Virus record (IMG/VR): IMGVR_UViG_3300042934_000628
Coordinates: 1 to 45,546 of that record
Length of the DNA stretch: 45,546 nt
Source: a virus
Strand: one strand, 5' to 3'
Shown: positions 4,850 to 43,191 of the stretch, in pieces
Layout of the letters: each line of letters begins with the position of its first letter
Numbering within the stretch: the first letter of the stretch is position 1
Notes under the pieces: model-generated
The model's database searches: none
What the model was told of the DNA's origin: nothing
Seen by the model: the letters and a program-made list of their open reading frames with translations, nothing else
Position numbers and translations under genes: made by a program

Positions 4850-5083
4850 TCAGTTGTTGTCGATGATCACCACGCCGTACGGCGTGCTCACGAAGCGGAC
4901 GATGCCCGCACGGCGGCAGTCCGCCGTGATGTCGGCCCACGTGGAACCCGGCTCGCGCTCCCAGGTGATCTGTCCGGACTCAACCGCGTTGCGCATGGCG
5001 TCCACGTCCGTGGCGCCGAAGCCTCGCAGTTCGTCCGTGCTTGCGTCGGCGTACAGCAGTGCTGCCACCAGCTTGTCATCCAT
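4850..5083 (-). CDS. Hypothetical protein (77 aa)
   Basis: Starts MDDKLVAALLYADASTDELR. A helical N-terminus precedes a C-terminal strand-rich part (GIVRFVSTPYGVVIIDNN). ATG at 5083 is preceded by GTGGAGAGGGGAAATGATC, the shared start signal. It is the first gene of the leftward block, next to the non-coding region. No family recognised. Confidence 0.75.
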   Translation of the reverse strand: MDDKLVAALLYADASTDELRGFGATDVDAMRNAVESGQITWEREPGSTWADITADCRRAGIVRFVSTPYGVVIIDNN

Positions 5084-6094
5084 GATCATTTCCCCTCTCC
5101 ACGGGAATGCCGGCAAATCCATGATCGCAAAACTCATCAGGCCAGCAGGGGAGTGCTGGCACGGCTGGTACTCGCCTTGCCCCTTGGAGCCGACGCCTTG
5201 CGGCGACCAACGGCGGGGCGGTCTCCCGCGCCCCAAGGTCCAGGTTTCATACCGTGCTTAATCCTGCGCAGCGCACCGCGCGCAGGATGTCCCCCCTGCT
5301 GGCTTGACGAGTGACGGGCATCGCGGCCCCTGAATGGCCGCGTAACGGCCCGTCATCGTCTCGTGAGGCTCGATGTCCTCACGGGTCGCCACCTGTGCCC
5401 ACAGGGCTTGTCTCCGGGTGTCCGGAGCCTGATGCCCTGCGCCATGTCCTGGCGCCCTGCCCGTGACTTGTCAGCGGCTGCTGGTCCAACGGGGCCCTAC
5501 TTCAACCGGCCAGGCTGTCCGAAAGCTCAGTGGGACCGAGCAGTGGATGCCCTTGGGCTGTCAAGCTGTTCGAAGCGCTCGAACGCCCTGTGAACACAAG
5601 GTGTCTGACGCTCCGGGATATCTCCCGGTTCCTCCGCTTCTGCGGTGTCGCCGGGCGATGACTAGAGATTGCCTAGTGAGCACGATCGTAGTCAAGCCCT
5701 CTCAGGGAACTTTTCCCAAGATCTTTTGTGTACCCAACTTGACCTGCACTTATGAGGGTTGCCTCACCTCGGAGAGGAATCTCGTTGAGTCCTCAAATGA
5801 CAACGACCGTGGTTGCGGAACGTGAGTCACCTCCTTGTGCCGGGGATGTGAAGATGCCGGACGCACGCTTCCGGTGTGCGCTCGATTCGCACCCGGTGCG
5901 AATCGCATAAATGCACGTCAAGGCCTACCTGAGGCGCATGACGGACCTGTCACGGCCCGGTGCAGAACGGACAGTTGTGCGTCATGGGGCGATCACGCCC
6001 CGTCATCTTCCGGCCCTTCTGGCCGGATTCGGAGTCTTGACGACGAACAGCGATCCTCCGGTGGACAGCTGGGCCGCACCAGGGGTGCCGGCCT

Positions 6095-6134
6095 CGCGCG
6101 CATGCGCGTACGTGTGCGCGTGTACGCGCGCGTA
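6095..6134. other. 40-nt alternating pyrimidine-purine tract (Z-DNA prone)
   Basis: From 6095 to 6134 every pyrimidine is followed by a purine without a break, mostly CG with a few TG and TA steps. A second tract of 23 nt lies at 6306-6328. Such tracts favour left-handed DNA under supercoiling. Both lie inside the hairpin-dense non-coding region. Confidence 0.85.
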
Positions 6135-6137
6135 AGG

Positions 6138-6780
6138 GCTCAGCCTGTGCCGACTGAGGCTGAGCCGCACAGGCGGCCCGCCAGGGCCGCACAGGGCCAC
6201 GCAGTGGCCATGGGTCACCCCCTTCCGCCGTACGCCCCCTCCAGGGGGCTGGCGGTACAGAGAGTCCGGCAGAGAAGGGGGCAGCAGGCGAAGCCTGCCA
6301 CCCCTCGTGTGCGCGTGCGCACGCACGCCATAGGTGGCCCACGGCGTGGGCCACACAGGGCCACCGGCCCTGGTGTGGTGGTGCTCTGACAGCACCACAC
6401 ATAGATGAGGCTGTGCCTGCTGGGGCACAGCCTCATATGTATGTGAGCCACCGGCTCACCCATGTACATGGACAAGGGGGCGAGCACACCATCACCGATG
6501 GTGGGTGAGTCCCCCTCCTTCGATCGGGGGTCAAGAGGTCTCGTCTGAGACCTCAATGTGCCTCTCACCTGCGGTTTTGCACCTGTATGACCCCAGGTGC
6601 TTAAAACCGCCTTGACCCCCGATCCCTGGTCTCCGACCAGGTCTCTGGGGCAAACTCCCTAGTACTTAGGGGCCGCTGCTGGGCGGCCCCGTACTCATAC
6701 CTAAGCGCCCGGGCGAAGGCCCAGGCGCTATCTCCGTGGTGTCCGCCGGACACCCTTTGGCGGCGCGCGGAGGCGCCGCC
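6138..6780. other. Array of about 17 nearly contiguous hairpins
   Basis: Stems in order: 6138-6165 (9 bp), 6173-6190 (7), 6195-6209 (6), 6225-6255 (5+7), 6284-6298 (6), 6334-6354 (9 bp, 3-nt loop), 6357-6371 (6), 6378-6398 (8), 6405-6436 (13 bp, 6-nt loop), 6443-6459 (7, loop ACC), 6460-6471 (perfect palindrome), 6487-6503 (6), 6522-6624 (three-way fold), 6625-6641 (6), 6661-6695 (5+8), 6705-6728 (9 of 10, loop GAAG), 6738-6754 (7, loop GCC), 6759-6780 (8). Loops are short and recurring (ACC, GAA, GAAG, GCC), as in folded single-stranded DNA or RNA. Confidence 0.8.
6522..6624. ncRNA. Three-way-junction-like element
   Basis: An outer 14-bp perfect stem (6522-6535 with 6611-6624) encloses two hairpins. 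The first is AGGTCTC/GAGACCT (6536-6553, loop GTCT). The second is a long arm starting GCGGTTTT GCACCT (6571-6584), pairing with AGGTGC TT AAAACCGC (6595-6610, a 2-nt bulge). Which strand is transcribed is not known. It could be a structured RNA or a DNA cruciform. Confidence 0.55.
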
Positions 6781-6890
6781 TAATGGGGGTTATGTTTTTT
6801 GAAGCTCGCTCGAACTGCTGTTTATTCCCGCATCTTTGGTCAAGAGTTGGCAAAGTCTCTTGAGGGGCCTGTGACCTGGGGGAACGTCAG

Positions 6891-7121
6891 CTATCGATAG
6901 CGGTACGGCCGTCCGTGGACGGCCTTGGAGCGGGTGAGGAGTCGCCCGCCGGTCGTCTGCCGACGACCTCTGAACTTCCAGTTCTCCGGCGGCTGGAAGC
7001 CGGCCGGGTCCTCGGGCATGCACTCCGAATGCACCCAGCGCTCTGAGAGTTTGTCGACAAATCGACCTACGGCGATCGGCCGGAGGCACATGGGACACGT
7101 TCCCGGGAACTTCGCCTGCAT
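6891..7121 (-). CDS. Small zinc-finger-like protein (76 aa)
   Basis: Starts MQAKFPGTCPMCLRPIAVGR. C9 and C12 with H31 and C34 (TCPMC and WVHSEC) form a CxxC...HxxC zinc site of the type seen in short actinobacterial and phage proteins that look like PARP-type or HNH-like finger fragments. The C-terminus is basic. ATG at 7121 has AAAGGG about 10 nt upstream; a longer form from an upstream ATG is possible. It is transcribed leftward, away from the terminase operon. Function unknown; probably a nucleic-acid-binding accessory. Confidence 0.75.
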   Translation of the reverse strand: MQAKFPGTCPMCLRPIAVGRFVDKLSERWVHSECMPEDPAGFQPPENWKFRGRRQTTGGRLLTRSKAVHGRPYRYR

Positions 7122-7247
7122 CGCGCACAGCCCTTTCTCGCGGCTCCGTGACGCATTGAACGGCTGATGGCAGAAAAGGGCCATCGGACGTAGCTTCGCC
7201 CCCCGGTCGGGGCCCTCAGGGCCCCCGAGACGCGGGGAGGTGGCCAG

Positions 7248-9191
7248 GTGGCCCGTCTGACGGTCAACAAGGACGGCAAGCTGGCCGGCGGGTCCCCGCG
7301 GGACCGCCGCATCTCCAAGGCGTCCTCGAAGGACAAGAAGCAGATCATCATCGCGACGGTGCGCATGGGGCACACCATCGCCGAGGGGTGCCACCAGGCG
7401 GGCGTGACCCGCAAGACGCACGAGTACTACCGGAAGAGTGACCCGGACTACCGGGACCTGATCGACCGGGCGTTGCAGAGCAACCTGGAGAAGTCCAAGG
7501 GTGACAAGCGCCCGGTGCCGGACTTCCCGGAGTTCTGCGAGCGGTACCTGAAGACGCAGCTCTTCCGGCACCACCTCCAGTGGTACGACCTCCTGGAGGG
7601 CCGCGAGCCCCGGGAGCTGCACCCGGCCCAGCGCTTCGTCCGCGGGGACGAAGACCAGATCGTGGTCAACACCCCGCCGGAGCACGCGAAGAGCACGACG
7701 CTCACCGTGAACTACGTGGTGTGGCGGATCGTCCAGGACCCGAACATCCGCATCCTGCTCGTGTCCAAGACGCAGTCCATGGCCGCCAAGTTCCTCTTCT
7801 CGATCAAGCAGCGGCTCGCCGAGTCCGAGACGTACTTGGACCTCCAGCAGCACTTCGGGCCGCCCGGCGGCTACCAGGAGGGCGCCAGCACCTGGAGCAG
7901 CACGCAGATCCGTGTGGCCGGAGCCGACTCCGGCGAGAAGGAGTACACGGTCGAGGCCGTCGGCATCGGCGGCCAGATCTACGGCACGCGTACGGACCTG
8001 GTCATCATGGACGACTGCGTGGACAACACGAATCACCAGCAGTTTGAGGCGCAGATCGACTGGATTCAGAACATCGTCGGCTCCCGCGTCGCCGACGTCG
8101 GCGGGCGCATGCTGCTCATCGGCACCCGCATGGCCACGGTGGACCTGTACTCCGAGATCCTGAAGCCGGCGTACTACTCCGAGGGCACCTCGCCCTGGAC
8201 GTACCTGACCCAGCCCGCGGTCCTCAACTTTGCCGACGACCCGAAGGACTGGGAGACCCTGTGGCCGGCGACCAACCGGCCGCCCGTGACCATCCAGGCC
8301 AGGAAGACGGCCCAGGAGGCCGGCTGGCCCAAGGACGGCCTCTGGCCGATGTGGCACGGCGAGGCCCTGGCCAGGAAGCGGCGCAAGATGACGCCGCGCA
8401 ACTGGTCGATGGTCTACATGCAAGACCAGGTCGCGGACGACGCGATCTTCAAGCAGGCCGACGTGCAGGGCTGCATCGACCGGGCCCGGTACCCGGGCCG
8501 CATGGGTGCCGGGCAGCCGCAGCACCGGCAGTACGGCATGGACGGCCTCCTCGTCATCGCCGGGCTGGACCCCGCCGCCGCGGGGTGCACGGCCATGCAG
8601 GTCTGGGGACTTGACCGCCGCACCGGAGTGCGGTGGGTGCTGGACGTCGTCAACAAGCGCGGCATGCCGCCGCACGAGATGCGCAGCGAGATCAAGCGCC
8701 TGACCGAGCGGTACGGCATCTCGGAGTGGCGGGTCGAGAAGAACGCCTACCAGGCGTCCATCGTTCAGGACCAGCTCATCAAGGACTACCTGACCGCCCG
8801 CGGCTGCCTCATCTCGCCGCACCACACGAACAGCAACAAGTGGGACCCCGATTTCGGTGTGGCCTCCATGGCCACGCTCTTCGAGGGCTGGCAGGACAAG
8901 CGGAACCTGATCCGGCTGCCGTCGCAGACGCAGAGCGAAGGCGTGCGCGCCTTCATCGAGCAGCTGTGCTCCTGGTTCCCGGAGACCAAGGGCCTGACCG
9001 ACACGGTCATGGCCGCCTGGTTCGTGGAGATCCGCTGCCGGGAGCTGATGGTCAGCGACTACAGCGGCTGGCACACGAACTCCTCCGAGTTCACCTCGGA
9101 GCGCGACCAGGCCGGACAGATGGTCGTGGACATCGACTTCGCCTTGCAGCAGCAGGGCGCTGGTGCCTGGGACGGGACGGTGAACTGGTGA
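7248..9191 (+). CDS. terL: Terminase large subunit with N-terminal HTH
   Basis: ATP-driven packaging motor and nuclease that cuts phage DNA and pumps it into the capsid through the portal. 647 aa. Walker A-type TPPEHAKST (142-150), Walker B LVIMDD (251-256), then an RNase H-like nuclease domain with D441 in AGLDPAAAG and a late TDTVMAAW segment. Residues 30-75 (IAEGCHQAGVTRKTHEYYRK) look like the DNA-binding HTH usually carried by a separate small terminase, and no separate TerS gene is seen. GTG start at 7248 with GGGGAGGTGG upstream; a small GC hairpin sits at about 7201-7230. First gene of the late operon. Confidence 0.97.
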   Translation: MARLTVNKDGKLAGGSPRDRRISKASSKDKKQIIIATVRMGHTIAEGCHQAGVTRKTHEYYRKSDPDYRDLIDRALQSNLEKSKGDKRPVPDFPEFCERYLKTQLFRHHLQWYDLLEGREPRELHPAQRFVRGDEDQIVVNTPPEHAKSTTLTVNYVVWRIVQDPNIRILLVSKTQSMAAKFLFSIKQRLAESETYLDLQQHFGPPGGYQEGASTWSSTQIRVAGADSGEKEYTVEAVGIGGQIYGTRTDLVIMDDCVDNTNHQQFEAQIDWIQNIVGSRVADVGGRMLLIGTRMATVDLYSEILKPAYYSEGTSPWTYLTQPAVLNFADDPKDWETLWPATNRPPVTIQARKTAQEAGWPKDGLWPMWHGEALARKRRKMTPRNWSMVYMQDQVADDAIFKQADVQGCIDRARYPGRMGAGQPQHRQYGMDGLLVIAGLDPAAAGCTAMQVWGLDRRTGVRWVLDVVNKRGMPPHEMRSEIKRLTERYGISEWRVEKNAYQASIVQDQLIKDYLTARGCLISPHHTNSNKWDPDFGVASMATLFEGWQDKRNLIRLPSQTQSEGVRAFIEQLCSWFPETKGLTDTVMAAWFVEIRCRELMVSDYSGWHTNSSEFTSERDQAGQMVVDIDFALQQQGAGAWDGTVNW

Positions 9192-12833: not shown

Positions 12834-13021
12834 TGGACTGGTGGACGACCCTGGGCAACTACATGACGTTGCTCGGCGATGCGCCCGCGCTCGCCGTGGA
12901 CATGGCCCTGACGGGCCCCAACGCCGATCACGTCGGCTACGGCCTGGCCTTCGGCATGCAGGCGTCCCCGACCGAGATGAACGTCTACCCCGACGAGGGC
13001 ATGTTCGCTGAGGGGGCCTGA
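12833..13021 (+). CDS. Hypothetical protein (62 aa)
   Basis: 62 aa, MDWWTTLGNYMTLLGDAPAL onward, hydrophobic/amphipathic N-terminal half and acidic tail. Coupled on both sides by shared-base TGATG overlaps with the 149-aa gene and the giant virion protein. Possibly a small partner of the ejection proteins (inference). Confidence 0.8.
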   Translation: MDWWTTLGNYMTLLGDAPALAVDMALTGPNADHVGYGLAFGMQASPTEMNVYPDEGMFAEGA

Positions 13022-16000
13022 TGGACTTCAGCGACGTCCTGAAGAACGTCCGCGACGTGGGCTACGGCGTGCCCATCGTCGGTACGTACCTCGGCGCCGG
13101 GATCAACCAGTTCGTGGACGACGAGCAGTCGGCGTCCGGGCACTGGATCGAAGACAACCTGATGAAGCCCGGCTCGCAGCCGCTCGTCAAGGCGATGCAC
13201 GCCCTGGCGTGGACGTACGACAACGGCGTGTCGCAGCCCATCTCCACCTTCCTGCTGGCCGGTACGCACAGCGAGAACCAGGGCTTCGGGGAGCTGTTCG
13301 AGGCCAGCACCTGGGCCAAGTCCTGGCACGTCGCCAACCACGTCTCGCCAGGGCAGGCGTTCTGGGCGAATCACGGCGAGGTCGAAGAGATCCTGAAGGA
13401 CCGGCCGTACTACGCGACGCCGTCCGCGGCCTACCTGCCGCCGGGCTGGGAGGATCTGCCGGAGGACGAGCAGCAGGAGCTGCTGGGCAAGGCGGGCATG
13501 CCGGTGATCGGCAACGCCGCCGTGGAGAAGATGCGCCGGGACTCAGCCTTCTTCAAGTACGCCAGCGGCACGACGGACTTCGCGGTCCGCTGGTGGCTGG
13601 ACCCGGCCGTCCTGGCCGGCAAGGGGATTGGCGCGGCGCGCACGAAGTTCGTGGTCACTCCCCGCCCCAAGGGCGGATGGAGCGGCGAGGACATCGGCAA
13701 GATGATGGACTCCTCGCGCATGGCCAAGGTCCAGGACTTCATCTGGACCAACAAGGACAATCCGCAGCTGATCAACAACCTGTCGATGTTCAAGAAGTCG
13801 GCCCTGGGCCCCCGGGCCGGATCGATCATCTCCAAGCTGACGAGTCCCGAAGAGGTCGCCCTCTTCCTGCGTACGACGCTCGGCGACGTCGAGGCGCGGA
13901 GCAAGCTCCAGAGCGAGAACGCCGCGGCGGCGGCGCGCATGGATGCGGTGACCGAGCGCCTGAGCAAGCTGGAGCTGGAGGCCCTGCCGCGCGTGCGCGC
14001 GCAGGCCAACCCCCAGGCGGAAGCGATGGTCACCGCCCGCATGGACGAGCTGCGCGGGCTCCAGCAGGCGGACGAGGATCTGACCGCCCGGTACACGGCG
14101 ACCCTGGAGCACCAGGGCGAGCTGGACGCCCTGAACCTGACCCGCCTGTCGGGCTCACGCGCGTACACGCGCACGGCGAACCAGAACCTCTTCAGGACGG
14201 GCCCGGCCTTGGGCACGACCTCCAAGGAGGTCGGCCGGCTCGCGAAGACGCGGATCTATGCGAACGACATGTTCGGCTCCAGCTCTACGCTGATCCGCTC
14301 CTTCGGTGAGGCGCACCCGAACGGCCTGATTCAGATCGACGACATCCATCCGGAGGCCATCGACGAGCTGCGCGGGCAGATCGCCCGCATCCCGGCCATC
14401 GGCCCCGACATCCGGGCCGACTTGCTGAACCGCTACTTGGCCACGCAGACCGAGGGCGAACGCCTGGAGATGCTGGAGGAGATCCAGGGTCTCGGCGTGA
14501 AGAAGGTCGCCGAGAAGCACGGTTTCACGACGGACGAGGCCAAGGCCCTGTATGCCGAGTACCGGGCGAATATCACCCACGGCCAGGAAGACCTGCGCCG
14601 GTACTCCGGCGCGAACATGGGCGACGAGCGCCAGAGCGCGGACATCTTCGCCGGCCACGACGGCAACCTGAAGATCCACCCCAACATGGTCACGAAGCTG
14701 GCCAACGACCATGTGATGATCGATTTGACCGCGCTGGACAAGACGCTGGCCCGGCATGGCAGCGCCCTCAAGGCGCTGCGTACGTCACGGATCGGTAACC
14801 CCGACTGGCTGGTTGACGGGGCTGACTACGTCAGCCACCTGTGGAAGTTCGCGACCCTGTTCCGCCTGGGCTACATCCCCCGTGTGCTGTCGGACGACCT
14901 TCTGGGCCAGGTGGCCCGCCTGGGCGCGGCGACGATGGCCGCTCGCGCCGGCTACGGCGTCAAGAACCTGGCCACCAACCTCTTCCACTGGAAGCCCGCG
15001 GCCTTCTACGAGGGCCAGGAGGCCGTGGCCCGCGAGGGCCTGCGCTTCGCGGACGATGAGATCAAGGCCCTGCGGCCGGAGGCCGACGCCCTGGCGAAGC
15101 AGCTGGAGCTGCGCGGCGCTACGTACCGGGCCGACCTCGGCAAGGCCAAGGCGCGGGCCACCCGGGCCCGCGGCAAGCTGGCCACGATGGACCGCACCGC
15201 GGACCCGGTCAAGTACAACGCCCTGTCGCAGTTGACGGCGAAACTCGACGAGCAGGTCACTGCCGCCGAAGCGAGACTGGAGAACCACTCGCCGCGGCGC
15301 CGGGAGCGCCTGTCGCAGCTCAATGAGCAGCTGGACGAGCTGATGGGCCACCGGTCCATGCACGAGTCCGCGGCCGAGGCCGCGAAGGGCATGAAGGGCA
15401 AGGGCTTCCGACAGACGTCGCAGCTGGACCGCCCCGTGTCCGTGGGCGGCATCGAGCTGCCGCCCGCTCTCGCGGGTGAGCAGGGTGAGTACTACATGAA
15501 GATGATCTCCTCGGACGACAGTCTGAGGACGCTGCTTCAGCGCAACAAGCAGATGATCCATTCGAACTTGCAGAAGGCGGCCTCCACGAAGGCCGCGGCC
15601 CCGATCAGCTACCCCGGGACCGAGAAGACGTTCGTGGAGGCGTGGCACAAGGCCATCAACCACCAGATCATGCAGGACAAGCTGGCCCTGAAGGCCGTCA
15701 ACGGCGCGACGGCCGACGACATGGCCCGCTGGCTGAAGAGCACCCCCGAGGGCCGGGCGTACCGCCGCCGCCTGGGCATTAAGTACGACACGCCGGAGCG
15801 CATCGCCCAGGCGGTGTGGCACGAGGTGGACGAGTACATGCCGCCCCTGTCGGGCATCCGCGAGGCCGCCCTGAAGGGTGAGGCGGACATCGACTACCTG
15901 GCCAGCATGGCCAAGACGGGCCAGTACCCGCAGTACGTGCACAGTCACCAGCTCGGCGAGGCCCTGGCGGGCTCGAACCATGCCACCCGGGCGATGGATC

Positions 16001-17874
16001 ACGTCATTGACTGGTGGTACAAGTGGGCGGCTTCGCTGCCCGCCGACCGCATGTCCCGGCACCCGCTGTTCAACCAGCTCTACGAGGGCCACGCCCGCAA
16101 CCTGGCGGGCCAGGAGATCAAGCAGGGCGTCACGCTCACCGCGGCGGATGCCGACCGTCTGGCCCAGACGGCCCGCAGGCTGGCCCTGAAGGACACGCGC
16201 AAGCTCGTCTTCGACATCGCCCACAGGAGTGACGTGGGCAGTGCCATGCGCTTCATGAGCCCCTTCTATGCGGCGACCACGGAGGCGTGGCAGCGCTGGG
16301 CGCGGATCATCGCGGACCGTCCTCAGACGGTCGGGTACGCCAGCCTTTTCTTCAACGCCCCGACCTCCTGGGGCTGGGCGCAGGACTCGAACGGCAACAA
16401 GATCGCCCGCGACGGCACGGTGACGGACTTCGACCCGAACACGGGGAAGATGGTCCGCCGCTTCGTCCCCAAGGGGGAGCGGCGCATCGTCGCCCGCGTA
16501 CCGCGGTTCCTGGTGGACAGCGACATCGGCAAGTCGCTGGGCATGGACAGCCTGGACAACAAGCTGGGCAAGTTCAAGATCTCCCAGGACTCGATGAACC
16601 TGATCACCCAGGGAGACCCGTTCTACAACCCGGGCACGGGCCCGGTGGTGTCCATCCCCGCCTCGCTCCTGGTGAAAGACAAGCCGAAGCAGGCCGAGAT
16701 GCTGCGGCATCTCGGCGTCCTGCCCTTCGGGCCGACGCCCGGCGGCATCGGTGAGACGGTGGCCCAGCAGGCCTTGCCCGCGTATGCGAGAAACTTCCTC
16801 ACAGCCTTCGACAGCTCGGACGAGCGCTACCAGCGCATCAAGTTGCAGATCATGCAGAAGGCGGCGTACGAGCACGCCAACCTGGGCAAGCCCATGCCCA
16901 GCGCGAAGGAGATCTCCGAGCGCACGCGGAACTACTGGCTGTTCTCGGCGGGCACCGCCTTCGTGCAGCCCTTCGCCACGCAGCAGCAGGACGAGTATCA
17001 GTTCTTCCGGGACCAGTACAACGCCCTGCGCCGCAAGGACCCGCTGAAGGCGGACGAAGAGTTCCTGGACCGCTTCGGCGAGAGCTACTTCGTCTTCGCC
17101 CAGGCGACGACCGAGAACAGCGGCGGCGTGCCGGCCACGATGAAGGCCGTCGAGCTGTCCCAGAAGTACAGCGAGCTGATCGCGAAGAACCCCGAGCTGG
17201 CGGCCCTGATCGTGGGCCCGGACGGCAAGGGCCCCTTCTCGCCGGAGGCGTACACGTACCAGCTGTCCGTCCCGCTGATCCCCGGCGGGGCGGAGATGCA
17301 GCGCTCCCGGCTGAGCGCCGACGAGGCGATGACGGAGAACCAGCGCCGTCTGGGATGGAGCAAGTTCACGCAGCTCCAGAACGCGGTGACCGCCCGCCTC
17401 CACGCGGCGGGCTTCGAGTCCTTCGAGGATGAGGGGGCCGAGCAGTTCAAGGCCATGCGCTCCGGCATCTCCAAGGTGCTCGGAGATCCGCTGCTGCCCG
17501 ACGGCAGCGACAACCCCTTCTACAACGAAGAGTGGTCGAAGGACTTCTACACCATCGATCCGAAGCGGTACGACCGCCTGATACCGGGCCTGACGGCCGT
17601 CGCGAACAGTGACCTGGCCCAGCAGAAGAACCGCAGCGACCTGCGGCGCCTCCAGGAGTACCTGAGCTACCGCAAGGCCCTGACGACGACGCTGGCCGCC
17701 CGGGACAAGCAGGGCGGCTCCCTGTCGCTGAAGGCCAAGTCCAACACGGATCTGGCCATCGTCTGGGGCCGAATTGTTGACGCTCTCGTAGAGTCCGACA
17801 CCCGCTTCGGAGATCTTTACCACCGCTACCTGTCCAGAGACCTGGGCGTAGACCTGGAGCTGGAGGAGGAGTAG
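13021..17874 (+). CDS. Giant internal virion (DNA ejection) protein, 1617 aa
   Basis: The largest gene in the window. No tape-measure-like TM repeats; instead there is a mixed globular protein with a coiled-coil stretch near residues 300-360 (helices rich in AAAARMDAVTERLSKLELEA) and another near 680-780. Its position before two cell-wall hydrolases resembles the internal core/ejection proteins of podoviruses (T7 gp14-16 type role), injected to carry the genome across the thick envelope. The function is inferred from context. Small repeated motifs such as RFMSPFYAATTEAW occur in the C-terminal half. The stop TAG is directly followed by the next ATG. Confidence 0.85.
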   Translation: MDFSDVLKNVRDVGYGVPIVGTYLGAGINQFVDDEQSASGHWIEDNLMKPGSQPLVKAMHALAWTYDNGVSQPISTFLLAGTHSENQGFGELFEASTWAKSWHVANHVSPGQAFWANHGEVEEILKDRPYYATPSAAYLPPGWEDLPEDEQQELLGKAGMPVIGNAAVEKMRRDSAFFKYASGTTDFAVRWWLDPAVLAGKGIGAARTKFVVTPRPKGGWSGEDIGKMMDSSRMAKVQDFIWTNKDNPQLINNLSMFKKSALGPRAGSIISKLTSPEEVALFLRTTLGDVEARSKLQSENAAAAARMDAVTERLSKLELEALPRVRAQANPQAEAMVTARMDELRGLQQADEDLTARYTATLEHQGELDALNLTRLSGSRAYTRTANQNLFRTGPALGTTSKEVGRLAKTRIYANDMFGSSSTLIRSFGEAHPNGLIQIDDIHPEAIDELRGQIARIPAIGPDIRADLLNRYLATQTEGERLEMLEEIQGLGVKKVAEKHGFTTDEAKALYAEYRANITHGQEDLRRYSGANMGDERQSADIFAGHDGNLKIHPNMVTKLANDHVMIDLTALDKTLARHGSALKALRTSRIGNPDWLVDGADYVSHLWKFATLFRLGYIPRVLSDDLLGQVARLGAATMAARAGYGVKNLATNLFHWKPAAFYEGQEAVAREGLRFADDEIKALRPEADALAKQLELRGATYRADLGKAKARATRARGKLATMDRTADPVKYNALSQLTAKLDEQVTAAEARLENHSPRRRERLSQLNEQLDELMGHRSMHESAAEAAKGMKGKGFRQTSQLDRPVSVGGIELPPALAGEQGEYYMKMISSDDSLRTLLQRNKQMIHSNLQKAASTKAAAPISYPGTEKTFVEAWHKAINHQIMQDKLALKAVNGATADDMARWLKSTPEGRAYRRRLGIKYDTPERIAQAVWHEVDEYMPPLSGIREAALKGEADIDYLASMAKTGQYPQYVHSHQLGEALAGSNHATRAMDHVIDWWYKWAASLPADRMSRHPLFNQLYEGHARNLAGQEIKQGVTLTAADADRLAQTARRLALKDTRKLVFDIAHRSDVGSAMRFMSPFYAATTEAWQRWARIIADRPQTVGYASLFFNAPTSWGWAQDSNGNKIARDGTVTDFDPNTGKMVRRFVPKGERRIVARVPRFLVDSDIGKSLGMDSLDNKLGKFKISQDSMNLITQGDPFYNPGTGPVVSIPASLLVKDKPKQAEMLRHLGVLPFGPTPGGIGETVAQQALPAYARNFLTAFDSSDERYQRIKLQIMQKAAYEHANLGKPMPSAKEISERTRNYWLFSAGTAFVQPFATQQQDEYQFFRDQYNALRRKDPLKADEEFLDRFGESYFVFAQATTENSGGVPATMKAVELSQKYSELIAKNPELAALIVGPDGKGPFSPEAYTYQLSVPLIPGGAEMQRSRLSADEAMTENQRRLGWSKFTQLQNAVTARLHAAGFESFEDEGAEQFKAMRSGISKVLGDPLLPDGSDNPFYNEEWSKDFYTIDPKRYDRLIPGLTAVANSDLAQQKNRSDLRRLQEYLSYRKALTTTLAARDKQGGSLSLKAKSNTDLAIVWGRIVDALVESDTRFGDLYHRYLSRDLGVDLELEEE

Positions 17875-33528: not shown

Positions 33529-33781
33529 GATCGCATGACTCCATTAGTTGTACGAGCGTCACGGCGGTGCCCCCGGCACCGCACGCGAAGCAGTGGAAGA
33601 CGCCCTTCTCCACAGAGACGGACATGGACGCACGGCGCTCGCCGTGAATGGGGCAGCACACCTGCTCGTTGCCCCATCGGCCCTCGTTGAGGTCTACGCC
33701 GTAGTGGGCGAGGATCGGCTTCAGCGGTAGCCCTGCGTTCTCAGCAGGAAGGCGGCGAGCCGGAGATCCATACGCACCCAT
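33371..33781 (-). CDS. Primase CHC2 zinc-finger half
   Basis: 136 aa. CHC2 zinc site C43, H46, C64, C67 (CCPIHGE and FHCFACGAGG), the DnaG template-recognition domain. Residues after about 95 overlap the TOPRIM gene in a different frame and may be meaningless, so expression could be by independent translation or a +1 shift. ATG at 33781 with GGAGGACTGGCA upstream. It overlaps the 33721 gene end. Confidence 0.85.
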   Translation of the reverse strand: MGAYGSPARRLPAENAGLPLKPILAHYGVDLNEGRWGNEQVCCPIHGERRASMSVSVEKGVFHCFACGAGGTAVTLVQLMESCDRADAERRAEEILRASGVDVRERSRGRYQRPGVSGEPGARAQRSRYVPPGRRS

Positions 33782-34131
33782 TGCCAGTCCTCCACAGGCC
33801 CCCCGAAGACCGGGTACTCAGCACCGAGGAGGTTCCAGGGGATGTGCGCCTCCCAGCGCTCCACGGGCTTGTAGTCCACCCGGACGACGAGAAGGTACAT
33901 CCCGGCCCTGGCATGCGCCGCTTCCTTGACGGTCTCGGCCTTCCAGGCGCTGATCTTGTTGGACCGGTCGCCCTTGATCTCGATGCACAGGCCCTCGATG
34001 CCGGTGACGTCGCCCTGGTCCTCCACGCCCTTGAGCGCCCGGCGCTCGGCCCGGGGGAAGCCGTTCTCGATGAGGTAGCGGACGACCTTGGTCTCCGTGT
34101 CGGTGCCCCGCTGCTTGGACTTGGCGCTCAC
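33721..34131 (-). CDS. PD-(D/E)XK nuclease, Holliday-resolvase-like
   Basis: 136 aa. Nuclease motif GVEDQGDVTGIEGLCIEIKG gives D41, E51 and K53; an earlier E13 fits the Hjc/VRR-NUC pattern. Probably resolves branched recombination or packaging intermediates. GTG start at 34131 overlaps the previous stop (GTGA). Named as resolvase-like from motif spacing; other endonuclease roles are possible. Confidence 0.82.
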   Translation of the reverse strand: MSAKSKQRGTDTETKVVRYLIENGFPRAERRALKGVEDQGDVTGIEGLCIEIKGDRSNKISAWKAETVKEAAHARAGMYLLVVRVDYKPVERWEAHIPWNLLGAEYPVFGGPVEDWQWVRMDLRLAAFLLRTQGYR

Positions 34132-34340
34132 TCGTCCTCGCCTCGCTTCAGGCGGCGGCCCTCGTTCTCCTTGACCCACTTGAAGAACTCGTCCACCGCA
34201 TCCTGGTCCCTGAACTTCGCCAGGCTGTGGAACACCGAGCCGTTGACCGTGCAGAGCCATTTGCCCTTGCGGCCTGGCACCTCCGAGACGATCAGCTCCC
34301 GGCCCGGGAGCCCTTCGCGTCGCTCGTTGCTCACCAGCAC
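34128..34340 (-). CDS. Hypothetical protein (70 aa)
   Basis: MLVSNERREGLPGRELIVSE onward; small basic protein with a WLCTVNGSVFHSLAKF strand-helix pattern and charged C-terminal helix (FFKWVKENEGRRLKRGEDE). GTGA coupling to the nuclease gene. Function unknown; it may assist the nuclease or primase. Confidence 0.75.
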   Translation of the reverse strand: MLVSNERREGLPGRELIVSEVPGRKGKWLCTVNGSVFHSLAKFRDQDAVDEFFKWVKENEGRRLKRGEDE

Positions 34341-39070: not shown

Positions 39071-39964
39071 CTAGAAGGGGATCTCGAAGCCCGGCGACGC
39101 CGGGTCGTAGTAGGTGGCCAGAGGGCCGTTGACGGCCGCGCAGGCGGCCTGTACGTCGCAGATGAAGCAGTCACCCGTAGTGGCGGGCCACGAGCCCGCA
39201 CGGACGTACTCCTGGACCTGATCCCAGGCGGCGCCGTAGACGGCGCCGATGGACTCGGGAGAGACCTCGGACAAGACGTAGGTCTTGCCGACCGTGCCCC
39301 GGCGGTTCATGAAGGGCACGCCCAGGTCCACGGTCACGCCGTACTTGGCCGCCAGCAGGGCGGCGTACGTCTCGAACTGGGCCGCGCTCTTGGGCGGCCT
39401 CTTGCCGGACTTGAGGTCGAGTACGACCAGCTTCTTGAAGACCGGGTCCCAGAAGACCCGGTCCACGTAGCCCTTGATCTCCACCGGGCAGCCGGGCAGC
39501 TTGCCCGACACGTCCAGCTCGATGGCCGGCTGGCTGTCCGGCGTCGTCCAGACCTCCCAGGGGCTGCGCTCCCGCCAGTCGATGTACGACTGGACGAACG
39601 TCAGGCCCTGGCGACGCCAGACGTCGATGGGCTCCGCCTTCGAGCGGCCCCACAGGTTCTCGTTGGGCTCCTTGGCGAAGGCCGCGTCCAGCTGCTTCTG
39701 GAAGCACGCCTCCCAGACCCCGGCCAGCTCGAACTTCATCAGGTCGGGGTCTTCGTCCCCTTCTCCGACGCGAAGCAGGTCGTAGAACTCCGTCGTCTCG
39801 TGCACGGCGGAGCCGCCCACGGACCACAGGGCGGGCCTCTTGGGCGCCTTGGCGAAGTACTTCAGGAAGTAGCTGCGCGCGCAGCGCTCCAGGGTCTCCT
39901 TGGCGGAGAAGCTGGTATGCGTGTGCTGCACCGCCTCAGGCGGTGAGGTCGTGGCCTCGGTCAT
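39071..39964 (-). CDS. RecB/Cas4-type nuclease with 4Fe-4S cluster
   Basis: 297 aa. N-terminal C28 in ETLERCARSYFLKYF and C-terminal C266, C269, C275 (DCFICDVQAAC) match the Fe-S-cluster cysteines of AddB/Cas4-like exonucleases. PD-(D/E)XK motifs: GSAVHETTEF, ELDVSGK, KGYVDRVFWDP and VVLDLKSGKRPPKSAAQFET (DLK and QxxxY). Likely a 5'-3' exonuclease in phage recombination. Overlaps the WhiB-like gene start region by 29 nt. Confidence 0.88.
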   Translation of the reverse strand: MTEATTSPPEAVQHTHTSFSAKETLERCARSYFLKYFAKAPKRPALWSVGGSAVHETTEFYDLLRVGEGDEDPDLMKFELAGVWEACFQKQLDAAFAKEPNENLWGRSKAEPIDVWRRQGLTFVQSYIDWRERSPWEVWTTPDSQPAIELDVSGKLPGCPVEIKGYVDRVFWDPVFKKLVVLDLKSGKRPPKSAAQFETYAALLAAKYGVTVDLGVPFMNRRGTVGKTYVLSEVSPESIGAVYGAAWDQVQEYVRAGSWPATTGDCFICDVQAACAAVNGPLATYYDPASPGFEIPF

Positions 39965-40664
39965 CGTCGGGCCTCGCTTTGTAGTTGAGGATCACGACCG
40001 CCTGGGGGCGGTAGAGGTGGACGTCGTCCGCCGGGAACCACTTGTGGACCTGGCCCCTGCCGGAAAACGTCGTGACGTTGATGTACGCCCCGTCCGCGGT
40101 CTGGCCGCGGTACCAGGCGTCCGACATGGCCCCGCCCGTGTGGCGAACCCAGGCGTGGCGACGCCCCGGCCTGTCCGGGAAGGGCTTCTTCGCCGCGGGC
40201 TCGGGCGGCGCGATCTCCACGACCTCGGCACCCTGTTCTTTCAGGTGCTGTTCCCAGATGCGGACCAGCAGCTCCCCGGCGGACTTCGTGATGCCGGTGA
40301 AGGTCTGTATGTCCTTCCAGAGCTGGCCCTGCTCGCGCAGGCGGTGGATCTCCTGCGCCCAGGCGAGGCGACGTTCCCGGGGCCAGCCCGGAACGGCCTT
40401 GGCCAGCTTCTTGCGGATCAGGTACCGCTCGTGCGGGTCCCACCCGCCGTAGACGCCGTACTCCTCGCCCAGCGTGTCGCGCTGGCACTGCTTGAGGACC
40501 GGGCAGTCCCGGCAGATCTCCTTGGCCTGGTTGTACAGGGCCTGTGTCTTCGGTACCGGCTTCCTGTCGGGCAGGCCGCCGGATGCGGCCCAGAAGAGGT
40601 GCTCGTCCTCCTCCCGGCAGATCGCCGATGCGCTCCATCGTCGGAGCGGATCGTAAAGAACCAT
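39936..40664 (-). CDS. WhiB-family regulator with long C-terminal extension
   Basis: 242 aa, about twice the usual length. N-terminal WhiB Fe-S domain with C16, C51, C54 and C60, followed by GVYGG (70-74). Then a helical HTH-like segment (AWAQEIHRLREQGQLWKDIQ) and a C-terminal domain with WYRGQTADGAYINVTTFSG. Phage WhiB proteins typically modulate host sigma-factor transcription. ATG at 40664 shares a base with the previous stop. Confidence 0.88.
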   Translation of the reverse strand: MVLYDPLRRWSASAICREEDEHLFWAASGGLPDRKPVPKTQALYNQAKEICRDCPVLKQCQRDTLGEEYGVYGGWDPHERYLIRKKLAKAVPGWPRERRLAWAQEIHRLREQGQLWKDIQTFTGITKSAGELLVRIWEQHLKEQGAEVVEIAPPEPAAKKPFPDRPGRRHAWVRHTGGAMSDAWYRGQTADGAYINVTTFSGRGQVHKWFPADDVHLYRPQAVVILNYKARPDDDRGHDLTA

Positions 40665-40786
40665 CACCGGGCCGCCAGATACAGCGTCACGGCCATCAGG
40701 CCGACGCCTGCACCGACGAGCCCTTCCAGGGCCACCCAGCCGAGGCGCCGCAGGCGCCTCTTGATGGCCTCCTTGTGCTTCACCAT
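40664..40786 (-). CDS. Small membrane protein (40 aa)
   Basis: MVKHKEAIKRRLRRLGWVAL then a hydrophobic stretch LEGLVGAGVGLMAVTLYLAA: basic N-terminus and one transmembrane helix. ATG at 40786 sits inside the stop of the upstream 27-aa gene's region. Function unknown. Confidence 0.6.
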   Translation of the reverse strand: MVKHKEAIKRRLRRLGWVALEGLVGAGVGLMAVTLYLAAR

Positions 40787-41130: not shown

Positions 41131-43191
41131 TCAGGCGGCCAAGTCCATACGAAAACGGATGACACCCGGAGTGACAGGCATGCTCGTGACCGTCCCTTCA
41201 GGTGCCGCCGGAACTCGAATGAGCAACCGCGGGTCGATCTTCCCCTCCACCAGCAGTGGAGGCAGGGGGTACGGGTCCAGCAGGGGAGTGCTCTCGCACT
41301 CCGCAAGGATGTCCATGGCCTGCTCGAAGAGGCCGGAGGCCACCCACCGCTGATAGCGGGTCGTGAGCCCCGTCGTCTTCCCGTACTGCTCGGGAAGCTC
41401 CTTCCACGTGCAGCCCGTACGGGCCTTCAGGAGCACCGCTTCGAGCACCTGGCGGTGCGGCAGGCGGTCCTTGCGCTGGCGCTTCTCCGAGCCCTCGAAG
41501 AGGGCCTGTACGCGGCTCCAGGCCGCATCGGTCAGCGTCGGTACGCCGCGGCCCCGCTCGCGGAACCAGGCGGTCAGCGTGTCGTCCGCCCGAACCTTCT
41601 TGGGGACCGCCCCGTTCAGCGTGACCTTCAGGTTCAGCAGGTCGCAGACCTCGGCCCGCTCCTCGGGCGTCATGTCCCGCATCTGCGTGCGGGCCACCTC
41701 GGCCAGGGCCTGGAGATCGTGCGCCCTCTGCTGGGCGAGATCCCCTTCCTTCTGCCACGCCAGGGCCTCGTCACGGAGCTTCACGAGCCCCGCTCGCTCG
41801 TCCTCCAGAGCCTTGGTCGCCTGGGCGACCGCTTCGGGGGACGTGCTCTTCGCGGCCAGGATCATCATGTTGGCGATGGCCTGGTCCTGGGCTTCGATCT
41901 TCTTGTTCAGGTCGTCCACGCGCTCGGCGTGGCCTGCGCCCTGGCCCGTGGCCATGTCCAGCCAGTCGGCTGCCATGGCGGTAAGGCGCTCCGGGTCCTG
42001 AAGGAGGCCGCAGACCTCCGACCAGACCTTGGCCTCCAGGGCGTCGGCGTCCACCTGAGAGCAGCCGCACACCTTGGCCCCGGCATGGGCCTCGATCTTC
42101 CCCGAGCACCGGTACATGCGGCCGGGCCGGTCGCACCGGTCAAGACCGGTGTAGTGCTTGCCGCACGCGCCGAAGACGCGCTTGGACAGCATGTGTACAC
42201 CGGATTCCTCGGCGCTCCTGCGGGAGCGCGCGTTCCGCGCCAGCGCCTTGTTCAGGCGCTCGACCTTGGCCACCGGCCAGAGCCGGGGCAGCTCGATGAC
42301 GACCGTCTGGCCGTTGACGGGCTGGCCGTCACGACCCAGCTTCGTGCCGCCCTTCCATCCGGCGGTGCCCGGGTCGCGATAGACCATCCGGGCTTCCTGA
42401 ATGGCCCGGGACTGGAGCCGGCGCCGGAGGTTGCCGGCGGTCCAGGGCTTGCCGTTCCTGGACCGGAAGCCTTCGGCGTTCATCGCCATCGCCGCCTGGC
42501 GGCAGTTCTTGGACTCGACGACGATCAGGCTCCAGGCCCTCTCCAGGGCCTCCGTCTCGTGGACGACTGCGCAGTGGCCGTCTGCGGGGCAGACGTCCAG
42601 CACCAGCTGGCTTTCGCCCTTGATGCCCTTGTCCTTGATGCGCCAGCCGTACGGGGCGGTCCCTCCCGGGTGCCCGCCCTCCTCGGCCTTCTCCTGGATG
42701 CCGCTCTGCGTGCGGACCCTGATGCGCGTGTACTCCTTGAAGGCGTAGTTCGCCTCGTCACGCATCTGGGCTTCGCCCTCTTCGGTGGTGGTGTCGAAGT
42801 CCTTGTCCACCACGGCCACGGAGATGTTCAGTTCGTCCAGGTCCCATACCCAGCGCCAGAAGACCCGGTCCTTGCGGCCGATGGCCCGCGTCTCGGAGAC
42901 CACGACCACGTCGAAGGGGCGCGGCTCTTGTCGGGCCAACTTCATCAGGCGGGGCAGGTCGTCCCGCTCCTGCCAGGGCAGGGAGCCGGAGACTCCCTCG
43001 TCCTTAAAGGTGTCGACATGAGCCCAGCCCTTGGCGGCGATGTATTTCGCCGTCTTCTTGGCGCTGTAGCTGATGCCGTACCCCTGCCTCTGCTGCTCCG
43101 TGGATACCCGGAGATAGTCCACGGCCCGGAGCCGCCCTGCCTGGGCGGCCCTGTCCGCCACGGCGATGGCGCTCGTGAGAGTGTTGGTCAC
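41131..43191 (-). CDS. int: Large serine integrase with C-terminal IS5-type (DUF4096) domain
   Basis: Site-specific recombinase catalysing attP x attB integration. 686 aa. Serine recombinase domain with nucleophile S30 in DYLRVSTEQQ, DEGVSGS, and a recombinase zinc-ribbon (FGACGK, YRCSG, KVCGC). A coiled coil lies at about 420-480. Residues 551-629 (TLTDAAWSRVQALFEGSEK, RTGCTWKELPEQYG) match the N-terminal DNA-binding DUF4096 region of IS5-family transposases, an unexpected fusion, followed by a 57-residue tail. GTG at 43191 with AAGGGACTGAC upstream. Confidence 0.93.
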   Translation of the reverse strand: MTNTLTSAIAVADRAAQAGRLRAVDYLRVSTEQQRQGYGISYSAKKTAKYIAAKGWAHVDTFKDEGVSGSLPWQERDDLPRLMKLARQEPRPFDVVVVSETRAIGRKDRVFWRWVWDLDELNISVAVVDKDFDTTTEEGEAQMRDEANYAFKEYTRIRVRTQSGIQEKAEEGGHPGGTAPYGWRIKDKGIKGESQLVLDVCPADGHCAVVHETEALERAWSLIVVESKNCRQAAMAMNAEGFRSRNGKPWTAGNLRRRLQSRAIQEARMVYRDPGTAGWKGGTKLGRDGQPVNGQTVVIELPRLWPVAKVERLNKALARNARSRRSAEESGVHMLSKRVFGACGKHYTGLDRCDRPGRMYRCSGKIEAHAGAKVCGCSQVDADALEAKVWSEVCGLLQDPERLTAMAADWLDMATGQGAGHAERVDDLNKKIEAQDQAIANMMILAAKSTSPEAVAQATKALEDERAGLVKLRDEALAWQKEGDLAQQRAHDLQALAEVARTQMRDMTPEERAEVCDLLNLKVTLNGAVPKKVRADDTLTAWFRERGRGVPTLTDAAWSRVQALFEGSEKRQRKDRLPHRQVLEAVLLKARTGCTWKELPEQYGKTTGLTTRYQRWVASGLFEQAMDILAECESTPLLDPYPLPPLLVEGKIDPRLLIRVPAAPEGTVTSMPVTPGVIRFRMDLAA

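Follow-up and report, generated by a model that had tools for sequence, protein, structure and literature searches.

The window, that is the whole stretch of DNA analysed here, comprises the 45,546 bases of a virus record whose two ends overlap by 29 bp and which is therefore regarded as a circularly closed assembly. Its rightward block is opened by the gene of the terminase large subunit (TerL) and also encodes an amidase, a portal protein and tail-type genes, while the leftward block encodes a primase, a DnaB-like helicase, an exonuclease, a WhiB protein and a serine recombinase (41131-43191). Judged from its sequence, the phage is related to Streptomyces podoviruses of the subfamily Beephvirinae. 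TerL is 45-50% identical to that of five Streptomyces phages of Beephvirinae (cluster BF), and identity reaches 94% with uncultivated phages and 65-90% with four Streptomyces genome loci. The WhiB-family regulator is located in the early block at 39936-40667 (PF02467). The serine recombinase has PF00239, PF13408 and PF07508 domains, and its C-terminal residues 552-624 correspond to DUF4096 (IS4/5 transposase-like), representing either an atypical fusion or a fragment that has hitch-hiked. The virion block includes a protein of 1617 aa (13021-17874; phrog_10618, function unassigned) that is kept down to about 20-24% identity. Its structural model is poor (1058 aa modelled, 12 sequences, pLDDT 61, pTM 0.27); being nearly all helical, it suggests that the protein is possibly an ejection protein.

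The following features define the region between the left arm and TerL:

4850 to 5083, minus strand: first ORF of the left arm, with its ATG near 5083.
5084 to 6890, no strand assigned: non-coding stretch, bounded by leftward ORFs on either side.
5565 to 5770, no strand assigned: conserved block of lower GC adjoining the array, a possible leftward promoter or duplex-opening region.
5940 to 6800, no strand assigned: hairpin array proper, densest at 6170-6780, delimited by hairpin lists and by the rise of coverage round the core in relatives.
6891 to 7127, minus strand: small Cys-containing ORF forming the right boundary of the stretch, coding status unproved.
7248 to 9191, plus strand: TerL (phrog_38, PF17289), opening the rightward block.

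The gene-free region had been placed at 5084-6890 by a sequence-only reading of this DNA, and these coordinates are correct: on the left, the region begins where the leftward ORF starts (near 5082), and on the right it reaches the stop of the small ORF at 6891. Its description as a separator of two divergent gene blocks applies in so far as the region adjoins the divergent junction; it would lie inside the leftward block, however, if the ORF at 6891-7127 is real. The GC content across 5560-5830 is 0.55. In the left part, the words TGACGAGTGAC and ACTCATCA(A) at 5119-5130 and 5303-5314 recur nearby in about ten relatives and are possible operator or promoter sites of the leftward genes.

Hairpins were defined as perfect stems of at least 6 bp with loops of 3-8 nt and compared with 200 dinucleotide shuffles. 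The stretch contains 28 of them, as against 3.2 in the shuffles (sd 1.7, maximum 9), and 18 with stems of at least 7 bp as against 0.9 (maximum 4). The earlier estimate of about 30 inverted repeats at a density beyond that expected from composition thus holds, as do the loops ACC, GAA and GCC and the stems of 13-14 bp, represented by a 13-bp hairpin at 6405-6436 and a long-range 14-bp stem (6522-6535 with 6611-6624). No other 1.8-kb segment of the genome is as dense in hairpins: 22% of the bases here are in stems, compared to a genome median of 10%. The density is uneven: 42% of bases are in stems at 6330-6790 and 14% at 5084-5830, the shuffles giving about 2-3%. Folding of both strands against a shuffled control, as the sequence-only reading had proposed, yielded strongly negative RNA z values of -10.0 on each strand at 5800-6790 and of -5.9 and -7.1 on the two strands at 5084-5900; for DNA folding of 5938-6830 they were -14.1 and -12.4. 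Intrinsic terminators were considered and rejected, 6 of 831 hairpins being followed by at least five T within 8 nt and three being preceded by A runs.

The array is kept in relatives with TerL identities of 50-94%, Streptomyces prophages included, and was absent from the five isolated Beephvirinae examined. Array-bearing prophages are represented, for instance, by L084 from Streptomyces himalayensis PSKA28 and L087 from Streptomyces sp. MP131-18. Before counting, 23 of 90 loci were removed. Near-duplicates (L018, L012, L019, L027, L051, L067, L068, L072, L073) were taken out by eye, L072 and L073 also being without an array beside TerL. Loci whose contig starts within TerL, which makes the upstream slice invalid (L032, L049, L050, L055, L070, L077), and loci without an array-like profile (L037, L074, L069, by hand) were likewise removed; L074 has the core motif described below and was counted among the array-less relatives. 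L088-L092 were set aside as a comparison group. In most clade loci reaching that far, the number of hairpins per 500 nt upstream of TerL peaks at 500-1500 nt, and the five Beephvirinae records show 1-5 hairpins per 500 nt over the first 2.5 kb.

A short core motif, TGACCC(C/G)nGG..TTAA, was found in 46 of the 67 loci examined. It is present in all 37 loci with at least 50% TerL identity and at least 1500 nt of upstream sequence, and in none of the six loci of the same length below 50%. With the loci anchored on this core, hairpin coverage is 0.37-0.55 from -500 to +200, compared to about 0.10-0.21 in the flanks, and the edges of the array are sharp relative to the motif. Hairpins of at least 6 bp round the core number 15-22 in array-bearing loci, 1-2 in the 463-848 nt round the core of Beephvirinae isolates, and 1-7 in the array-less L074 and L098-L109. 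Within the latter, L100, L102, L104, L105, L107 and L109 form a separate lineage without an array (TerL 43% identical), in which the core motif is followed by an AT-rich ATATATAC tract.

Relatives share DNA identity in short blocks only; the hairpins between these blocks differ in sequence and vary in number and spacing. Across the 46 loci, 605 hairpins of at least 7 bp were collected, with a median gap of 20 nt, and 458 of the 605 stems are distinct. DNA similarity searches gave no match for the stretch 5084-6890 or the start of L099 in phages, nor for the start of L065 in plasmids.

Around the core motif, the window shows the following structure:

6522 to 6535, plus strand: 5′ arm of stem P1, 14 bp, perfect, pairing with 6611-6624.
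6535 to 6554, plus strand: hairpin P2.
6579 to 6600, plus strand: hairpin P3 with a TATGACCC loop.
6588 to 6606, plus strand: core motif TGACCC(C/G)nGG..TTAAAC, common to array-bearing and array-less relatives.
6611 to 6624, plus strand: 3′ arm of stem P1.
6625 to 6641, plus strand: hairpin P4 with invariant TGGT...CCA and covarying outer pairs.

In 43 of 46 genomes, a stem enclosing the core was detected, its location being almost constant except in L052. The three misses are L066 and two loci with contigs truncated at this point, L005 and L059. The stems have 9-20 pairs, mostly 13-20, and stems with a score of at least 9 were obtained in 11 of 95 upstream control windows. Together, they comprise 650 Watson-Crick pairs, a single G-T and five other mismatches, a ratio that is somewhat flattering because the search for P1 favours Watson-Crick stems. 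In an alignment of 25 chosen core-element sequences (A1), all 13 pairs of P1 have changed on both sides, with 94.8% of the cells paired. The covariation score of the whole structure was 0.564 compared to 0.145 after shuffling; none of 500 shuffles scored as high and slid controls did not exceed 0.188. G-T pairs account for 5 of 469 in the alignment stems. In the tRNA stems of sister phages, by comparison, G-U accounts for 146 of 1557 pairs (9.4%), counted among allowed pairs because ARAGORN reports these alone. At this rate, the chance of finding at most one G-U in the enclosing stems would be about 1e-26, subject to the biases of search and control. The near-zero G-U content of covarying stems means that changes in the stems bypass G-U, unlike in RNA. 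Among stems with a single mismatch, G-T (27) exceeds A-C (14), a tilt that the shuffles show similarly (94 to 55). Ribosomal RNA was tried as the G-U control for these single-mismatch hairpins and discarded for having too few long hairpins; tRNAs were used instead.

These data bear on the proposal that the TerL-sense strand gives rise to a large structured non-coding RNA of the GOLLD/ROOL kind. Such RNAs are likewise long, highly folded, non-coding and found in phages, and one would be compatible with the conserved, multi-branched fold, in which loop letters are invariant and stems covary, and with the strong RNA folding z. On the other hand, the one G-T per 650 pairs and 5 in 469 contrast with the 9.4% of phage tRNAs, tetraloops of the type GNYA (27) outnumber GNRA (10) with no TTCG loop at all, and the number and spacing of hairpins vary among relatives. 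Furthermore, the search for large-RNA models in Rfam, another of the checks proposed at the outset, returned no family at gathering score and two sub-threshold matches to other sRNA families. The array thus differs from GOLLD and ROOL in lacking a family match, in having almost no G-U and in showing no GNRA preference, and we regard an RNA of this type as quite improbable.

The loops differ between the two strands. Between -650 and 0 relative to the core, GN(N)A tri- and tetraloops on the TerL strand outnumber TN(N)C loops by 98 to 25 (p 2e-11, identical hairpins removed), and by genome the GNA type is more frequent in 32, less frequent in one and tied in 13. Controls gave 20 versus 24 for coding regions and 22 versus 32 for shuffled arrays. 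On the left-end side (+65 to +300), with 12 versus 8 loops, the bias is absent rather than reversed; the difference between the two zones has a p of 0.08. In the 46 arrays, 74% of hairpins have C and 13% have G as the 5′ loop-closing base, the corresponding values for coding-region hairpins being 49% and 28%; the sequence flanking the array hairpins is weakly biased. C-GNA-G mini-hairpins are exceptionally stable in DNA. Because of the near-absent G-U, the GNA/GNNA loops on one strand and the C-G closing pair, stem and loop features point to folded DNA and not RNA, and a hairpin array at the DNA level that can form in a single strand is well supported.

Hairpins of this kind might also be extruded for transcription of the entering DNA, as in phage N4, and be read by a virion, phage or host polymerase. 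The N4 promoters are described as DNA hairpins with a 3-base loop and a sheared G:A pair, extruded under gyrase supercoiling (PMC4496689), and the array has comparable mini-hairpins with a GNA loop and a C-G closing pair; moreover, the annotation of Abafar, a sister phage, includes an N4-type capsid. However, there are more than a dozen hairpins per genome, mostly different from each other (458 of 605 stems distinct), and no promoter letters are conserved in their weakly biased flanks, whereas N4 promoters share the positions -17 to +1. An N4-type polymerase was not found, the 1617-aa virion protein showing neither a T7-type polymerase motif nor a PDB sequence match, albeit with the poor model (pLDDT 61) mentioned above. 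An N4-like use of the hairpins therefore seems as improbable to us as the large RNA.

The position of the core motif connects the array with the end of the genome. Deposited genomes of sister phages have exact terminal repeats of 264 bp (WRightOn), 274 bp (HaugeAnator) and 253 bp (FlowerPower), and the record of Abafar has one of 396 bp with a different cut. The repeat of 253 bp is published for FlowerPower (PMC9753666), and one of 265 bp is given for another phage of cluster BF (PMC13097060). In the isolates with deposited ends, a motif resembling the core is set about 40 nt inward from the right-hand end of the direct terminal repeat, in the layout ...GACCCGGGGGTTGTTAA...GGGGGAGTG|AGTCCC, and 434-443 nt upstream of TerL. 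In array-less relatives (43-50% TerL identity), it is found on the TerL strand 394-503 nt upstream; the expression used for this search missed FlowerPower, which carries a variant. In the array-bearing clade, ARACYC, which resembles the sequence after the cut, starts 63-65 nt past the core in 27 of 46 loci under the strict motif compared to 12 of 957 control windows, and most of the remaining loci show near variants at the same place. From the core beside deposited ends and ARACYC at fixed spacing it follows that the array surrounds the expected end. The relevant features are:

6218 to 6281, plus strand: conserved bulged-hairpin element CCCCTTCCGMC...GGGGCTGNCGG, found in 17 loci and preceded by a hairpin of free sequence.
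6503 to 6520, plus strand: GGTGGGTG/AGTCCCCCTCC element, alternative candidate for the right cut, resembling the isolates' junction GGGGAGTG|AGTCCC.
6651 to 6652, no strand assigned: right end of the terminal repeat as predicted by homology, ARACYC being 63-65 nt after the core.
6669 to 6780, no strand assigned: hairpins that would belong to the left end if the cut is as predicted; in relatives, the loops here show no strand bias.

There are two candidate cut sites, 6507/6508 and 6651/6652, and the exact position of the end in the array clade, like a protective role of the hairpins, is something we infer from sequence comparison. The CCCCTTCCGMC element is a weak candidate for the left side of the terminal repeat. 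No repeat was directly seen, since the virus records of the array clade with this element carry one copy; assemblies collapse terminal repeats. A search of the array clade for a conserved left boundary of the repeat found none, and the start region of L099 has no second same-strand copy in L099. Contig ends scatter through the array, with L108 alone ending near the predicted cut, a weak indication.

Taken together, the array is likely a terminal and packaging region, and the DNA end of this phage group is probably tiled with hairpins over about 900 bases. A more specific reading, a folded-DNA terminal and packaging region with a telomere-like, hairpin-tiled end, we consider to have about an even chance, a telomere-like function being plausible by analogy. 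Of the four options initially proposed, the best fit is given by a packaging region and by a telomere-like folded end, and the GOLLD/ROOL RNA found no support. In this mechanism, the core element (P1 enclosing P2 and P3, then P4) would mark the point at which the direct terminal repeat ends on its right side and at which the terminase would cut replicated concatemers. With about 500 nt of hairpins to the left of the core and about 200 nt to the right, both ends of the linear virion DNA would be tiled with hairpins. The end would become single-stranded through an unfilled lagging strand, resection at entry, or strand displacement during duplication of the repeat, and the TerL-sense strand, with its 3′ end at the right terminus, would then fold into stable hairpins of the C-GNA-G type. 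Much like the palindromes of Streptomyces telomeres, these may shield the end from nucleases, act as fold-back primers, or both; the stage with a single strand and the role in protection or priming are the parts that we infer. For packaging as such, the array is dispensable, because the isolated sister phages, which lack it, package with a terminal repeat. The Pfam scan of 38 window proteins recognised no telomere or terminal protein, a class that Pfam may not cover.

A replication origin or lagging-strand initiation zone, in which template hairpins load primase, helicase or an initiator beside the 5560-5830 block, would account for the same position of the array in all relatives next to the conserved block of 55% GC. 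The strand-specific GNA loops would fit a single exposed strand, and the phage encodes a DnaB-like helicase and a primase. Nevertheless, the cumulative GC skew has no sharp turn at the array, the core motif also occurs in array-less relatives and there at the packaging end, and no initiator was recognised among the window proteins scanned, so that we judge an origin to be improbable, if less so than the RNA and promoter explanations.

The hairpins might finally have no molecular reader at all, replication slippage and fold-back template switching creating and perfecting palindromes. Perfect stems of almost free sequence are what self-templated correction would be expected to produce. Selection is suggested, by contrast, by the sharp edges fixed to the core, the spacing of 63-65 nt, the strand-specific loops and the C-G closing pairs, and the corresponding non-coding region of isolated Beephvirinae, with the same neighbour genes, lacks an array; we hold this explanation to be the least probable of all. 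Self-templated copying could also operate within the terminal reading. The phages may represent a further type of end, terminase-cut and terminally redundant with a self-perfecting folded telomere. Fold-back synthesis would rewrite the stems there, accounting for their perfect pairing, their free sequence and the lack of G-U intermediates. We put this forward tentatively and think it rather unlikely; the same doubtful standing applies to its corollary, a convergence on the GNA-loop palindromes at the ends of the host's linear chromosome.

The gene content of the relatives offers additional clues. Within the TerL clade (G000-G020), 11 of 21 records have PF07508, which occurs in none of five isolates, the five Beephvirinae records examined lacking a serine recombinase, and the array-less G027 encodes a tyrosine integrase. 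Beephvirinae isolates are characterised as virulent or lytic in the publications on them. A link between the array and lysogeny is only partly supported by these sequence comparisons. A resolvase-like gene of phrog_244 (33721-34260) is present in all nine clade genomes compared, one of which (G018) has an array that was not directly seen, and in none of seven array-less ones. Some array-less genomes without it carry another annotated Holliday junction resolvase. The distribution of phrog_244 gives a hint, at the level of gene content, to the proposed mechanism.

Covariation without G-U in combination with strand-specific loops of DNA type constitutes sequence-only evidence for a long region folding as DNA, and the loop-strand test could also serve for other phage ends and for the DNA of mobile elements. 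If the region is a genome end, a lineage of Streptomyces phages has evolved a telomere-like terminus alongside ordinary terminase ends. In that case, the survival of linear phage DNA against nucleases and the duplication of terminal repeats become testable, as does the question whether selection or self-templated copying keeps the palindromes perfect. Searches of an open-access library, judged from the listings, yielded no description of such an array, most subscription journals being outside this scope.

Among known systems, the ends of Beephvirinae (WRightOn, HaugeAnator, FlowerPower, Abafar) share with the present locus the gene order on both sides, a non-coding zone of about 2.1 kb and the core motif GACCC..GGGTTGTTAAAC upstream of TerL, but they have no hairpin array, no P1 or P4 and, in five records, no serine recombinase. 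At the concatemer junction of phage T7, a palindrome lies beside the terminal repeat, and a role in duplication of the repeat has been proposed for it; T7 has a single palindrome, whereas an array is found here. Streptomyces telomeres are described as closely spaced palindromes that extend for some 300 nt or more, with GCA loops and sheared G:A pairs, the loops lying on the strand whose 3′ end is at the terminus (PMC4513846). Unlike in these telomeres, the stem sequences of the array are not conserved, no terminal protein was recognised among the proteins scanned, and the phage ends are expected to be made by terminase with a terminal repeat, the array lying partly inside the repeat. Like them, the array consists of tightly packed palindromes and, provided that the end is located as predicted, carries its GNA-type loops on the 3′-ending strand.
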